From Nitrosospira multiformis (GTDB lineage: Bacteria; Pseudomonadota; Gammaproteobacteria; Burkholderiales; Nitrosomonadaceae), in assembly GCF_900103165.1 (NCBI RefSeq), contig NZ_FNKY01000001.1, forward strand, positions 1,054,001 through 1,118,000: a stretch of 64,000 nucleotides of DNA. The letters run 5' to 3'. Positions within the stretch are counted from its first letter, which is position 1. Each line of letters opens with the position of its first letter. Both the position numbers and the translations under genes were made by a program. Positions 46,329 through 51,296 of the stretch are shown here, in pieces. Below the pieces are notes generated by a model, which worked only from the letters and a program-made list of their open reading frames with translations, did not search any database and was not told the origin of the DNA.

Positions 46329-46390
46329 GAAATATGTCCGGCCGGACTTTTTGTAGCCGATTTCCTTCAAATCCGACAGCTTGTCAGGTC
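46329..46390 (-). repeat. Intergenic repeat family, inverted copy between ankyrin and P450 genes
   Basis: The minus strand reads GTCGGATTTGAAGGAAATCGGCTACAAAA and then, after a gap, GGACATATTTCG. This lines up with the copy at 50027-50104. It overlaps the last bases of the P450 gene. Confidence 0.55.
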
Positions 46391-47652
46391 CAGGAAAGGT
46401 CGTATTGTTCCGGAAAAGGGCCGGACTTGTAGTCGATCGGTGCATTGGCCTTGATATTTTGCCGATTCAGGACCTGACGCACCATTTCGGGAATCATGAC
46501 CATTCCAACGTAGCGTCCCAGGCACTCATGACTACCAAAACCGAAATGGAAATAATTGTACCAATTGCGTTGCGGCATAAATTCGTCCGGTGATTCAAAC
46601 GCCCGCTCATCAAACATTGCCGACAGGGTAACCGGTAAAACATGAGTGCCTTCGCGAAGGACGGTGGCATGTCCGGTACCCTTGGCCGCGGTGTAATCGC
46701 TCGCGGTGGTGCGAAACAAATAGGGAGTAATCGGGACGAAGCGCAGAGCCTCCCAGACGATGCCATCGAATTCGGCGGGCGTATCCTTTAGCGCGGCAGT
46801 CTTCGCTTTGCCCAGCCATTCCGGACGTTCCATCAGATACTGGATGATCTGGGCAACCGCCTGTGCAGTGGTCTCGATTGCACCAATCAAGAGACCGCCA
46901 GCATTCAGCCCGAGCCGTTTGATGTCGAAATCCAGTTGTTTAGGGTAATCCGTGCGCAACATTCTGGTTACGATATCGTCGTCCAGCCGCACGAGGGTTG
47001 AAAGGGTTATTGCCTCCGCTTTTACCTGTAGCAGGCGGCGAGCAATAAGTTCAACGATGAACATACCGAGCGCTTTGGAAGTTTCATTATGGCGATCAAT
47101 GATGTGCTGGGATTTTTCCGGGGGCAGCAGATCGAAAGGCTGATTGTGGAAGGTATCCCATTGGTTCCAGTACGACCATTCGATCAAATCACTCCGTTTC
47201 GCTCCGGTTAGTCCGAAATATTCTCGCACCAGCGTTGCCGGCACCATGCGGCAATAGTTGTTGACCAGTTCAATGTTGCCGTTGGCGGTGTCGAGTATCT
47301 CCTTGGAGACATTTGCCACCATTTCGCGCACAGCAGGCAGGTCATCGCGATTCAGCATACATTGCATCAGTGATTTTTCGCGTGTATGCAGGGCATCATC
47401 GTCATGCATCATCAGATAATCGGCCATCTTCGGAACATAGGGCTTAACCGTGAATACCTTAGGCATGCTCAGCACTTCCCTGACATCGTCGAAGCGTGTG
47501 ACCAGGGTGAATTTGGGCGTTATCAGAATGGGGCGTTTTTCACGCAGCTCCTTGAAAAATGGTAACGGTTCTGTGTCGATCCAGCGGCGTGCCAACGGAG
47601 ATTTATCTGCATCGGCAGCGGCGTCGTACTGCTCCAAGTAGTTCGCACTCAT
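46384..47652 (-). CDS. Cytochrome P450
   Basis: A 422-residue soluble P450. The haem-binding loop is HFGFGSHECLGRYVG with the ligand Cys, the ExxR motif is in IVWEALRF, and the I-helix has GGLLIGAIETTAQAVAQI where the usual acidic-Thr pair is ET. There is no signal peptide or membrane anchor. It would insert oxygen into an unknown substrate, using ferredoxin partners that are not nearby. GGGAG precedes the ATG. The adjacent upstream gene, 69 bases away on the same strand, encodes a di-haem cytochrome; the two have similar leader sequences and are likely one operon. Confidence 0.93.
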   Translation of the reverse strand: MSANYLEQYDAAADADKSPLARRWIDTEPLPFFKELREKRPILITPKFTLVTRFDDVREVLSMPKVFTVKPYVPKMADYLMMHDDDALHTREKSLMQCMLNRDDLPAVREMVANVSKEILDTANGNIELVNNYCRMVPATLVREYFGLTGAKRSDLIEWSYWNQWDTFHNQPFDLLPPEKSQHIIDRHNETSKALGMFIVELIARRLLQVKAEAITLSTLVRLDDDIVTRMLRTDYPKQLDFDIKRLGLNAGGLLIGAIETTAQAVAQIIQYLMERPEWLGKAKTAALKDTPAEFDGIVWEALRFVPITPYLFRTTASDYTAAKGTGHATVLREGTHVLPVTLSAMFDERAFESPDEFMPQRNWYNYFHFGFGSHECLGRYVGMVMIPEMVRQVLNRQNIKANAPIDYKSGPFPEQYDLSWT

Positions 47653-47721
47653 CGGTAGCTCCCTTATGGTTTGTAGGTGATAGATATTAAGAATCGTGCT
47701 GATCAGAAATCGGGAAGTCGA

Positions 47722-49869
47722 TCATAGTGTTTTCAGGTATTCGAGCAAATCAAGACGTTGTTCTTTCGACATGGGGTACAGGCATTTATCCCTGATGGAT
47801 TTATCCACAAGTTCGTCTTTAATTGTCTCATCCATGCATTGATCCTTGATCTTCTGATCCACAGGCCCATCAGACTCGTCTACGGTACGTCTGACGCCGT
47901 AGTCGTGCCCGGCGTTATTATTGCCGCGGATATTGGTCTTGAACATGAAGCCCCCATATCCGCTGCTTTTTAAGCCTACCTTCACAGGGTCGAATTCACG
48001 TGCACCGACCTCAAACTCGTCAGGCCGATATTCACCGTCTTGCGGATCTCCCGGACGTCTTTTTGGCAGTAATAAATCATAAAGCGTTGGTACGGAGCCA
48101 TTATGCAGGTAAGGTGCGGTTGCCCAGATGCCATTCAGTGGCCTCGCCTTATAAGATTTTAAAGATGCGACTGGATTGGCCGTGGTGTCTGGATCGTAAT
48201 CACCGTGCTTGATCGATGGCTTGATCTCGTTATGGCGGAACCCTGCTGCTAAATTGGAGATCCAGTCGATCCAGCGGCGTAGAAACCATTTGTCCTGATC
48301 GGGGGTGGCGACAACCCCAATAGTCGCCCGGGTCAGCAAGGCCGCAACCGGAGCCCGCCGATCCAGCAAGACATCGCCCACACTCATGCCAACATACTGA
48401 TTCCGCAGAATGCCGGAGAAGCCTTGGTAACTTACGCTATTTTCGGCCATCTGGGGGTCCGTACCCACATCGCTCGCCCTCGACATATGCGCCACGACGC
48501 GGCGATCAGGATCGTCGCGCTGGATTCTTGCATGGCAGCTCACGCAATGCTTATTGAACAAGGACCGCCCATTCGCAAGGCGGGTCTCGTCGATGGGCGG
48601 AAGGATATCCTCCGGCCATAGCGGAGATTGAAGACTCAACAGACGCGCTTCGATAAGGCGCAGATTTTGAACATTAACGGAAGAATAATAGCTGATATGA
48701 CGACCATACAAACCCTGCCCATTAATGAAGGCGGATATCGAAAATCCTTTATTTTCCGTCCAGTCAAGTGTACCGAATACGCCTATCGCTTCCCCCGTAT
48801 TGCGTGCAATCGCCTTAAGCCCGGCATTTTCCGTGAGGCCGTTCCATTGAACATAGTCATGTTGAGGTGTGTCCCATAGGAATGGGTAGCTTACCGGTGC
48901 GTCAGGGGGGTTAAACAGCTTCTTCCGTAAACGCCCGAGTGCTTCCCAGCCATTATTCTCGTTTAGAGTCGTCACAATATTTTCGACGATACTGTCTCGT
49001 TCAGCGCCACTCAGGACATCACCCGCCCCATTTGTTATCGATCTTATCTGTTCCTCTGTCATCGCGTGGCTTCCCATTATCCTGGGGTCGCGCAATAGTT
49101 CCTGGAGCTCTTTGACGTTGATGACATGTTCCAGAACCCTGTTGTAAATGCGTCCGAACGCATCCAGCCTCGCGTAGCCGTAATGGAGGCTGCTGTAGTT
49201 GATCGTAATGTAACTGGCGAGACGTTCGCGATATTTCTTGAGGTCTGCGAGGACCTCGGCCTCCGTCTTGTAATTGCCGCGGGCTAATACATTTTTCACA
49301 AACCGGTTTCGAACCTCCTCGTTTTTGAGGGTTGCTATCAAGGCGCGGACAATATCCGCCATGAAGGTTTCCATATCTGCGCTTGCCGGACCGCCATCGA
49401 TCCGTATCCCCTTGCCCTTATAGTTTATTTGTCCGGTATGGCAGGCGGAGCAAGTCAAACCGAGATATTCTTTACCCTTATAATCATCCTTGACAAATCC
49501 AACCGGCAGTCCATCCGGATTACTGGAAGTCACCTTCTGCGGCAGATAACGATATCGATTCATGTTCTCGTTAGAGCGGAACGGCTCGGCTTTATCCACC
49601 TGCTCCAGCGCCAGGAAAAAATCGTAGGGCATCATGTCGGATCCCTGCGTGATGGTGTAAAACCAGAGACTGTCGGTGGGCGTCCATCCTTGATCAAGGT
49701 ACTTTATCGCCGTAAAGCTGTCGCCAAAAACATCCTGCTTGACTATCGTTGCACCCCTGTCGGGATCGGCGTCAAGAGCCGCGCAGGCAGGCAAGAGCGC
49801 GGTCAAAAGAATCAAGACAGGAATGGAAGAGTTACGTCGCTTTTCCAACGCGATTGAAAATTGGTTCAC
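47722..49869 (-). CDS. RoxA-like di-haem cytochrome c lipoprotein
   Basis: A 715-residue exported protein with a lipobox (LPAC, Cys 29) and two covalent haem sites, CSACH (140-144) and CVSCH (442-446). The overall layout, with NGIWATAPYLHNGSVPTLYDLL near the C-terminus, matches the di-haem cytochrome c peroxidase/MauG superfamily. The length and the first-half sequence are closest to the RoxA-like branch that includes rubber oxygenase. It should sit on a membrane face in the periplasm or outside. The start is GTG with GGGGA upstream. Peroxidase or dioxygenase activity is not decidable from sequence alone. Confidence 0.85.
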   Translation of the reverse strand: MNQFSIALEKRRNSSIPVLILLTALLPACAALDADPDRGATIVKQDVFGDSFTAIKYLDQGWTPTDSLWFYTITQGSDMMPYDFFLALEQVDKAEPFRSNENMNRYRYLPQKVTSSNPDGLPVGFVKDDYKGKEYLGLTCSACHTGQINYKGKGIRIDGGPASADMETFMADIVRALIATLKNEEVRNRFVKNVLARGNYKTEAEVLADLKKYRERLASYITINYSSLHYGYARLDAFGRIYNRVLEHVINVKELQELLRDPRIMGSHAMTEEQIRSITNGAGDVLSGAERDSIVENIVTTLNENNGWEALGRLRKKLFNPPDAPVSYPFLWDTPQHDYVQWNGLTENAGLKAIARNTGEAIGVFGTLDWTENKGFSISAFINGQGLYGRHISYYSSVNVQNLRLIEARLLSLQSPLWPEDILPPIDETRLANGRSLFNKHCVSCHARIQRDDPDRRVVAHMSRASDVGTDPQMAENSVSYQGFSGILRNQYVGMSVGDVLLDRRAPVAALLTRATIGVVATPDQDKWFLRRWIDWISNLAAGFRHNEIKPSIKHGDYDPDTTANPVASLKSYKARPLNGIWATAPYLHNGSVPTLYDLLLPKRRPGDPQDGEYRPDEFEVGAREFDPVKVGLKSSGYGGFMFKTNIRGNNNAGHDYGVRRTVDESDGPVDQKIKDQCMDETIKDELVDKSIRDKCLYPMSKEQRLDLLEYLKTL

Positions 49870-50289: not shown

Positions 50290-50524
50290 AAGATACCATT
50301 GGCAGCAAGAAACAAGAAAAACCTGTTAATCGAAGTGGCCAAAAATGAAGCACGCCTGAAACGCGCCGCCATCAACCTGCTGGCGGGCGATAGGCTGGAT
50401 AAAAAGTTGTTCTACCAGCTTACCAGCACAACCTGGCGGGATTCCCGGCGCATCAGTGGGTACCTTGCGCGCGTCAATATGGTTCAGCTCCTTGAGCAGT
50501 TCAACAGCATCGATCAAATTTATG
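50290..50524 (+). pseudogene. Possible decayed coding fragment
   Basis: The stretch reads in one frame as NLLIEVAKNEARLKRAAINL and goes on through a region with a natural amino-acid mix to about NSIDQIYG. There it meets the oppositely oriented PEP-CTERM gene and loses sense. There is no good start codon with ribosome site, and the sequence upstream is in a different apparent frame. I do not recognise the family. It may be a broken gene or chance. Confidence 0.25.
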
Positions 50525-51296
50525 GCCTACGTTGGCGTCTAAATACTAGCCCAATTAAAGCTGCAAGACTCAAAAGGGCAAGGGTGGGCGGTTCTGAAAC
50601 CGGAACCAAAGTTCCCTGCCAATCGTAAGACATAATATTGTTGCTGAACGACATGTTACTGAAAATAACTCTGCCTTCCTGCTGCTGAGTCGGCATTTGA
50701 ACCGATAACCCGGTGTATAGCGTGTGTAGATCTACCACAAAAGATGATCCATTCGCGCGTACTAGCGACGCCGTAGTAGAAACTTCGATGCTTGTAGGAT
50801 CAAGCTGTGTCCAAATCCAGTGGTAGTCAGTTACGAATACAAGGTCGGTTGGACCATTGTATGTACCATTGACATCGGCCGTATAATTCAACATGTTGCC
50901 TATCGTCGACATATGAGTCGTTACACTAATTTGGTCGCCCGGCAGCGAAGGCCACATCGCTACTCGACCTGCATCGTAATTTCCTCCACTTAGATCGAAG
51001 AGGTTTAGGGCACCCCCAGACGTGTGAACACCTAATGCGCTGTTTGAGGTCGTCCAGGAATTTCCAAGTGCGAATGGGCTGATATTGCTAGGAATCGACG
51101 TAAAATCAACTTGAACATGACTAAGAGTATTACCTGTTACATCCGTCTGGCCGGTCGCGGTTGCGATAATTGGTACACCATTAATCTGTCCTGTATAGTC
51201 GCCCGAGAATTGAAATATGGGATTGGCTCGGACCAAGCCACTGAATGAAATATTCAAACAGATAACTAATGCCAATATAGAATAATTTATTCTCAT
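50520..51296 (-). CDS. PEP-CTERM sorting-domain protein
   Basis: A 258-residue exported protein with a signal peptide ending GLVRA, a beta-rich passenger of unknown family, and a C-terminal VSEPPTLALLSLAALIGLVF followed by RRQRR. The sorting motif has SEP in place of PEP, which also occurs in this family. It should be processed by an exosortase and deposited in the extracellular matrix. It is alone, on an AT-richer stretch than its neighbours. Confidence 0.82.
   Translation of the reverse strand: MRINYSILALVICLNISFSGLVRANPIFQFSGDYTGQINGVPIIATATGQTDVTGNTLSHVQVDFTSIPSNISPFALGNSWTTSNSALGVHTSGGALNLFDLSGGNYDAGRVAMWPSLPGDQISVTTHMSTIGNMLNYTADVNGTYNGPTDLVFVTDYHWIWTQLDPTSIEVSTTASLVRANGSSFVVDLHTLYTGLSVQMPTQQQEGRVIFSNMSFSNNIMSYDWQGTLVPVSEPPTLALLSLAALIGLVFRRQRRP

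Follow-up and report, generated by a model that had tools for sequence, protein, structure and literature searches.

Why should a Nitrosospira genome keep a soluble cytochrome P450 beside an exported di-haem protein, and what might the two enzymes make together? The question is raised by a 64,000-nucleotide stretch of the Nitrosospira multiformis genome (contig NZ_FNKY01000001.1, positions 1,054,001 to 1,118,000; hereafter the window), in which an open reading frame (ORF) for a di-haem c-type protein (47722-49869, minus strand, 715 residues, GTG start) lies upstream of one for a cytochrome P450 (46384-47652, minus strand, 422 residues, ATG start). An initial annotation of the window had reported a soluble P450 and an exported 715-residue di-haem protein 69 bases apart, and the ORFs, coordinates, protein families and lipobox that we found agree with it; the gap runs from the di-haem stop codon to the P450 start codon (47653-47721, minus strand). 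The two genes likely form an operon, because both lie on one strand. We propose, with a probability of roughly one half, that the two genes encode an oxylipin module: the di-haem protein would dioxygenate an unsaturated acyl chain, and its product would be modified by the P450. The description of the two leaders as similar did not hold up: the similarity score of the 40 bases before each start codon was equalled in 902 of 5000 shuffles, a comparable likeness was reached by 5 of 45 other leader pairs within the window, and no signal peptide or strongly hydrophobic stretch was seen in the sequence of the P450.

The pairing of the P450 with a di-haem gene is far above chance. A scan of named genomes with an alignment of the P450 recovered 201 relatives, of which the best 80 were analysed. 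These belonged to Nitrosospira, Nitrosovibrio, Nitrosomonas, Methylobacter, Methylovulum and Methyloglobulus, to further gammaproteobacteria including the marine genera Zhongshania, Paraglaciecola, Neptuniibacter and Endozoicomonas, and to records labelled Terriglobia, Verrucomicrobiaceae and Zetaproteobacteria; the nearest named relatives were Nitrosospira, the P450 of strain NpAV being 97% identical. Metagenome-assembled records (such as L160, L168, L170 and L171) may be misbinned. A di-haem gene lay in the flank of 78 of the 80 P450 loci. At 74 of the 80 it was directly upstream on the same strand, with a median gap of 46.5 bases over those 74 loci, and at four (L161, L182, L191 and L195) it was found only elsewhere in the flank. 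The initial annotation had suggested looking for the pair in other genomes, and there too the two genes kept together: across 61 genomes from the window's own up through its genus, family and order, 18 held both genes, 43 held neither and none held one alone, at thresholds of at least 78% identity for the P450 and at least 579 bits for the long di-haem type. A scan of the class (369 genomes) yielded eight genomes besides the window's with a P450 match at E ≤1e-30. Six of these matches adjoin a di-haem gene, with P450 identity down to 33-37%, and the remaining two are linked instead to dye-decolourising peroxidases (DyP). Among divergent pairs the arrangement can be altered, being convergent in G131 and reversed in order in G201.

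The association was also read from the di-haem side. We call the di-haem subtype of the window protein DH1. Across 79 loci from the NF040606 and A2 searches (L065-L093 and L199-L248, with some genomes entered twice and at least two DH1 loci, L065 and L070), such a P450 lay within 1.5 kb only at L065, which carries DH1; the P450 link is therefore special to the DH1 type. No third gene family was widespread around the 80 P450 loci, the next commonest being an ABC ATPase at 6 of 80. Likewise, no redox partner or regulator recurred widely over these loci, ferredoxins not having been specifically searched.

Several loci depart from the simple two-gene layout. In a Nitrosomonadaceae lineage (L122, L123, L128, L129 and L131) two tandem di-haem genes are followed by the P450, and in gammaproteobacterial loci L174, L178, L181, L184, L194 and L196 one or two extra, distant di-haem genes lie downstream of the P450. 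At L108 (9638-11587) a di-haem-like protein that partners another P450 has its second haem motif aligned as CxxxCH, not CxxCH. The records L182 and L191 are labelled Nitrosomonas and have P450s nearest other gammaproteobacterial rows in the tree; they are probably misbinned.

What kind of enzyme is the di-haem protein? It has two CxxCH motifs, CSACH (H144) and CVSCH (H446), and an LPAC lipobox at Cys29, and is a probable exported lipoprotein judging from its sequence. A pattern search found the lipobox in 11 of the 13 rows that come from ammonia oxidisers or their close kin, and in none of 23 other rows; DH1-type rows outside that group have a hydrophobic N-terminal stretch in its place. The protein matches PF21419 (RoxA-like, 70.1 bits) and scores 599 bits on NF040606, named 'di-heme-cytochrome C peroxidase' (cut-off 150). 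In Pseudomonas aeruginosa, the available part of one study describes PA2077 as a 10S-dioxygenase and PA2078 as a 7,10-diol synthase, with oleic acid and its hydroperoxide as substrates, chain lengths of 634 and 624 residues, and mutated positions H130/H375 and H130/H365/C518, respectively (PMC4496055). A tandem pair in genome G910 matches these published lengths and residues, and it is this pair, recognised in that way, that we refer to as the PA2077 and PA2078 types (together, FadCcp). Both pass NF040606, at 525.5 and 484.9 bits against the same cut-off of 150, and the window protein is 30.4% identical to the PA2077 type over 684 residues. With solved RoxA, its best aligned stretch spans just 35 residues.

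The haem pockets were compared via alignment. RoxA Phe301-Trp302 corresponds to Gln341-Trp342 of the window protein, to Gln-Trp in the PA2077 type and to Gln-Ser in the PA2078 type; the P. aeruginosa study, as far as its available text goes, also gives Phe301 as replaced by Gln in both PA2077 and PA2078, with Trp302 retained in PA2077 only (PMC4496055). The motif R-N-x-G-E at 356-360 is shared with PA2077; PA2078 has it in broken form, and the RoxA pieces lack it. RoxA His641, distal to the C-terminal haem, corresponds to His655, and the MauG motif PYLHNGSVP is kept. Phe317, given for characterised RoxA and RoxB in the accessible part of a further study (PMC6311187), aligns to Ile362 or, in a profile alignment, to Val364, with a conserved Phe365 adjoining; at this position the alignments disagree.

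Phylogeny placed the protein with the fatty-acid enzymes. The di-haem tree (68 rows) was built from called frames with two CxxCH motifs that matched our di-haem profile; L094, which is split over two frames, is thereby excluded, as are L108 and part of the search loci. In it DH1 formed a clade of 33 rows with support of 100/99, and RoxA, which was entered as joined pieces and sits on a long branch, fell outside a 58-row clade (100/99) that contains DH1 and PA2077/PA2078. When five long rows were removed, DH1 stayed at 100/99, and DH1, PA2077/PA2078, the subtype shared by methanotrophs and short nitrifier proteins, and L115 grouped as 42 rows at 98/97; the corresponding clade in the all-row tree had 44 rows at 87/96. 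The tree thus supports a shared clade for DH1 and PA2077/PA2078, not a direct sister relation. The AlphaFold model of the di-haem protein (mean pLDDT 79.7) aligned best with RoxA in VIA-align (Z 13.0 over 402 residues), followed by MauG (Z 6.9 over 235 residues), in a listing that held no chains of cytochrome c peroxidases, which rules nothing out. In Foldseek the TM-scores were low (0.34-0.37), yet RoxA was the sole match at E ≤0.001. The modelled protein is accordingly predicted to have a RoxA-type fold.

The initial annotation had called the protein RoxA-like, a label that fits its predicted fold and does not extend to membership. The curated NCBIfam models require 1000 bits for RoxA and 900 bits each for RoxB and RoxC, and the protein scored 44.6, 54.6 and 56.8 bits, respectively; the phylogeny that the annotation had proposed groups the protein with PA2077/PA2078, RoxA lying outside. 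We found neither a grouping with ordinary peroxidases nor a lack of conserved pairing. Membership in the RoxA/RoxB rubber oxygenases, or in an isoprenoid-cleaving group, was rejected, since the curated Rox models were far below cut-off and the tree groups the protein elsewhere. When 250 genomes of the order were searched for RoxB, none matched; this is uninformative, as no control matched either.

These results also bear on the suggestion that the substrate is hydrophobic or isoprenoid. A hydrophobic substrate remains probable. We think it unlikely that the di-haem protein cleaves or oxygenates the C=C bond of an isoprenoid (a quinone side chain, hopanoid precursor, carotenoid or external terpene) and that the P450 oxidises the product. 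The RoxA fold, the inter-haem Trp342 and the MauG motif are all retained, Phe365 lies near the position of RoxA Phe317 and could substitute for it, and some fungal DyP enzymes cleave carotenoids, which would suit the DyP partners; nonetheless, the rubber oxygenase models are far missed, Phe301 is replaced by Gln, the tree position is with fatty-acid enzymes, and acyl-lipid hydrolases adjoin some divergent pairs.

In Methylobacter L163 and L164 the di-haem gene and the P450 are followed by a Zn-dependent phospholipase C (PF00882, 75.7 and 76.4 bits), which in Methylobacter L162 lies upstream instead. A phosphoesterase of PF04185, a family that includes phospholipases C, sits between the P450 and the di-haem gene in Methyloglobulus L161. 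A ceramidase-like gene (PF05875) occurs in G027, where its neighbours are another P450 and a distant di-haem-like gene. Such lipid hydrolases next to some divergent pairs point to acyl lipids.

Turning to the second enzyme, the window P450 matches PF00067 (66.8 bits) and shows the FGxGxHxCxG and ExxR motifs and the P450 fold. Its haem ligand, Cys377, lies within FGFGSHECLG, the ExxR motif spans 301-304 and the I-helix site reads Glu260-Thr261-Thr262; Glu260, Thr261, Thr262, Glu301, Arg304 and Cys377 are invariant in all 27 rows of the P450 alignment (A4). The AlphaFold model of this protein has weak stretches at positions 70-88 and 369-378. The known hydroperoxide-isomerising P450s (fungal linoleate diol and allene oxide synthases (LDS/AOS), CYP74, CYP5 and CYP8) have typically lost the acid residue before Thr in the I-helix, and in both DyP-linked relatives Pro replaces Glu at this site. 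The conserved Glu-Thr pair of the window P450 would thus favour an ordinary monooxygenase. The I-helix criterion is not strict, since Thr is present in some self-sufficient fungal AOS, according to the accessible text of one paper (PMC13049297). In the other direction, three points favour a P450 that processes a hydroperoxide: no third gene recurs widely, one relative is fused to DyP (see below), and there is a parallel with fungal fusions of a dioxygenase and a P450 (DOX-CYP); the same text describes the P450s of fungal DOX-CYP as self-sufficient (PMC13049297).

How could the two enzymes work together? In the oxylipin module that we favour, the anchored periplasmic di-haem protein would, like PA2077, activate O2 at its N-terminal haem, as its family, residues and neighbours suggest. 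Addition of O2 near a double bond would give a hydroperoxide, the substrate probably being a fatty acid of 16 or 18 carbons with one double bond. The cytosolic P450 would then act on the hydroperoxide or its alcohol, a step suggested by the conserved pairing. It may rearrange the hydroperoxide without redox partners, in the role of PA2078 or of the P450 half of fungal DOX-CYP, or it may hydroxylate, a generic ferredoxin supplying the electrons. An oxygenated fatty acid would result, for use in signalling or in the turnover of membrane lipids.

Several observations weigh against this module. To our knowledge, no member of the DH1 clade has a known product or activity, and identity to PA2077 is only about 30%. 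The P450 appears cytosolic and the di-haem protein periplasmic, and with two enzymes in apparently different compartments the product must cross the membrane. Two of the 80 P450 loci (L167 and L169) lack a di-haem gene, and some DH1 members (L070/G595 and L114/G033) have no such P450 nearby. The structures closest to the P450 model in the fold search were CYP125, CYP109, CYP153 and CYP199, presumably all ordinary monooxygenases, and the Glu-Thr pair, a usual feature of monooxygenases that activate O2, lowers the prospect of an isomerase. Finally, no lipid hydrolase lies beside the window pair, and the scan for such genes covered only a minority of the nitrifier pairs.

Some of the same points would suit two enzymes with separate jobs, the P450 being a ferredoxin-dependent lipid or hydrocarbon hydroxylase, the di-haem protein acting elsewhere or passing electrons, and the two genes being joined only as a transferred unit. 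The different compartments and the conserved Glu260-Thr261 agree with this, and the fold matches of the P450 include, among many, the fatty acid hydroxylase CYP153A. We nevertheless regard it as improbable, since the pairing survives changes in gene order, orientation and di-haem subtype, distant relatives of the P450 are partnered by another haem peroxidase, and the restriction of the link to a single locus, of DH1 type, among the 79 of the reverse search makes it special to that type.

The trees suggest a change of partner. The P450 tree comprised a hand-picked 42 of the 80 named loci, the window and seven other rows; its most divergent rows are long-branched, leaving the deep branching unsure, and it concords only roughly with the di-haem tree among non-nitrifier rows. 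The methanotroph di-haem proteins of L162, L163 and L166 fall in the subtype of a short paralogue from the window's genus, while the P450s of those methanotrophs sit near nitrifier P450s, and L160, a methanotroph-labelled record, carries DH1. The P450 therefore appears to have switched its di-haem partner. The short paralogue is present in the window's own genome as a second di-haem protein of about 571 residues (G000:C1:2345260-2346858; L251:7150-8862); its close relatives group with the partners of the methanotroph P450s, and no P450 was seen beside the paralogue itself.

Another kind of partner is found in the two DyP-linked cases. At L099 (5883-10151) a single ORF of 1423 residues combines an N-terminal P450, an uncharacterised middle part and a C-terminal DyP-type peroxidase, and at L100 a distant P450 relative adjoins a DyP-type peroxidase and a glutathione S-transferase (GST). 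Peroxide defence, with the di-haem protein reducing lipid peroxide or H2O2 in the periplasm and the P450 disposing of oxidised lipid, would accord with these peroxidase partners, with the GST beside one of them and with the family's name of di-heme cytochrome c peroxidase, yet it is doubtful, given that fold and sequence are closer to the RoxA and FadCcp oxygenases than to MauG and that the only characterised clade members known to us act as dioxygenase and as diol synthase (PMC4496055, from the part available).

Some genomes of the Nitrosospira group lack the pair, and in these a different set of genes was found. Among 23 genomes of the window's genus, 14 carry the pair, 8 carry a lipoxygenase (PF00305), one carries neither and none carries both, so that 8 of the 9 genomes without the pair have the lipoxygenase. 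In 7 of these 8 it lies about 6-7 kb from an RNB gene (G002 gave no RNB match), the same one that adjoins the pair in the window. The comparison covered the near side of the lipoxygenase cluster and places it near this gene, not necessarily in the exact interval of the pair. The RNB protein tree, from which three loci giving no RNB row are absent (among them that of pair-less G017), needs only one or two changes to account for the distribution of pair and lipoxygenase. The mutual exclusion therefore reflects one or two replacements, not independent repeats.

Two further haem enzymes are encoded in the lipoxygenase cluster of L267 (830-12142), an animal haem peroxidase that matches PF03098 with 148 bits and a DyP-like protein that scores 22.7 bits, below cut-off. 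The latter and a neighbouring uncharacterised protein are homologous to parts of the DyP-P450 fusion, at 33.7% over 483 residues and 36% over 225 residues, respectively. The cluster further holds a subtilase, a hydrolase-like protein and a 401-residue protein with no Pfam match, which to us reads like a catalase-type haem protein. Loci L266, L268, L269 and L271-L273 have ORFs of similar size and start to those of L267, in which alone the domains were checked. In G017, also of the window's genus, lptD, mpl, an ankyrin gene and the RNB gene follow the window order, and the locus gave no matches to the P450, the di-haem gene or the DUF3617 gene. In the window itself a lone PEP-CTERM-like protein (50520-51296) stands between the di-haem and RNB genes, and no match to it was found in relatives L105-L107.

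Taken further, these findings allow a broader and decidedly more speculative proposal. The pair may be a bacterial counterpart of fungal DOX-CYP built from unrelated parts, a periplasmic di-haem maker of hydroperoxides and a dedicated oxylipin-forming P450 lineage. That lineage would have been matched repeatedly with differing haem oxidases (at least three di-haem subtypes, and DyP, once fused), and in the Nitrosospira group the module would have been replaced, near the same gene, by a cluster of lipoxygenase and cyclooxygenase (COX)-like enzymes. Oxylipin signals, reported to act between cells in P. aeruginosa (PMC6377657, available part), would on this view also be produced by nitrifiers and methanotrophs. 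If the pair is indeed an oxylipin module, ammonia oxidisers and methanotrophs, whose lifestyles are based on inorganic nitrogen or methane, carry dedicated enzymes for making oxygenated fatty acids, oxylipin chemistry reaches the bacterial drivers of nitrification and methane oxidation, and a bacterial dioxygenase-P450 pair becomes available for comparison with the fungal fusions. FadCcp proteins, RoxA and P450s are already known, and the accessible text of one report notes homologues of PA2077/PA2078 in a few other genera (PMC6377657). Apparently new here is a FadCcp-clade enzyme partnered with a P450, a partnership for which we found no description in the titles and opening abstract text of the open-licence PubMed Central (PMC) papers retrieved.

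How does the pair compare with known systems? With MauG and the bacterial cytochrome c peroxidases the di-haem protein shares the di-haem c-type architecture, but the MauG chain is about half as long (355 residues) and its Z score is well below that of RoxA. The likeness to RoxA and RoxB is greater, taking in the overall fold, both CxxCH motifs, His655 for His641, the MauG motif and Trp342 for Trp302, and it ends at the Rox cut-offs, all of which are missed, at the Gln in place of Phe301 and at the position of RoxA outside the clade. The FadCcp proteins have in common with the window protein the NCBIfam family, a supported clade, haem motifs, export and a two-gene layout with a dioxygenase-type member, the Gln-Trp signature being shared with PA2077 in particular. 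They differ in that the second enzyme of the window is a cytosolic P450 rather than a second di-haem protein, in the modest identity, in the membrane anchor or lipoprotein form of window-type proteins, and in that no OdsR-like regulator recurs as a neighbour of the pair. In its combination of a haem oxygenase with a P450, the pair instead resembles the fungal DOX-CYP enzymes (linoleate diol, allene oxide and epoxy alcohol synthases), and the Cys pocket of the window P450 reads HEC, as quoted for 9-AOS in the part of the source available (PMC13049297). The fungal dioxygenase belongs to the peroxidase-COX superfamily and is fused to its P450 (PMC13049297); the resemblance drawn here is one of architecture.

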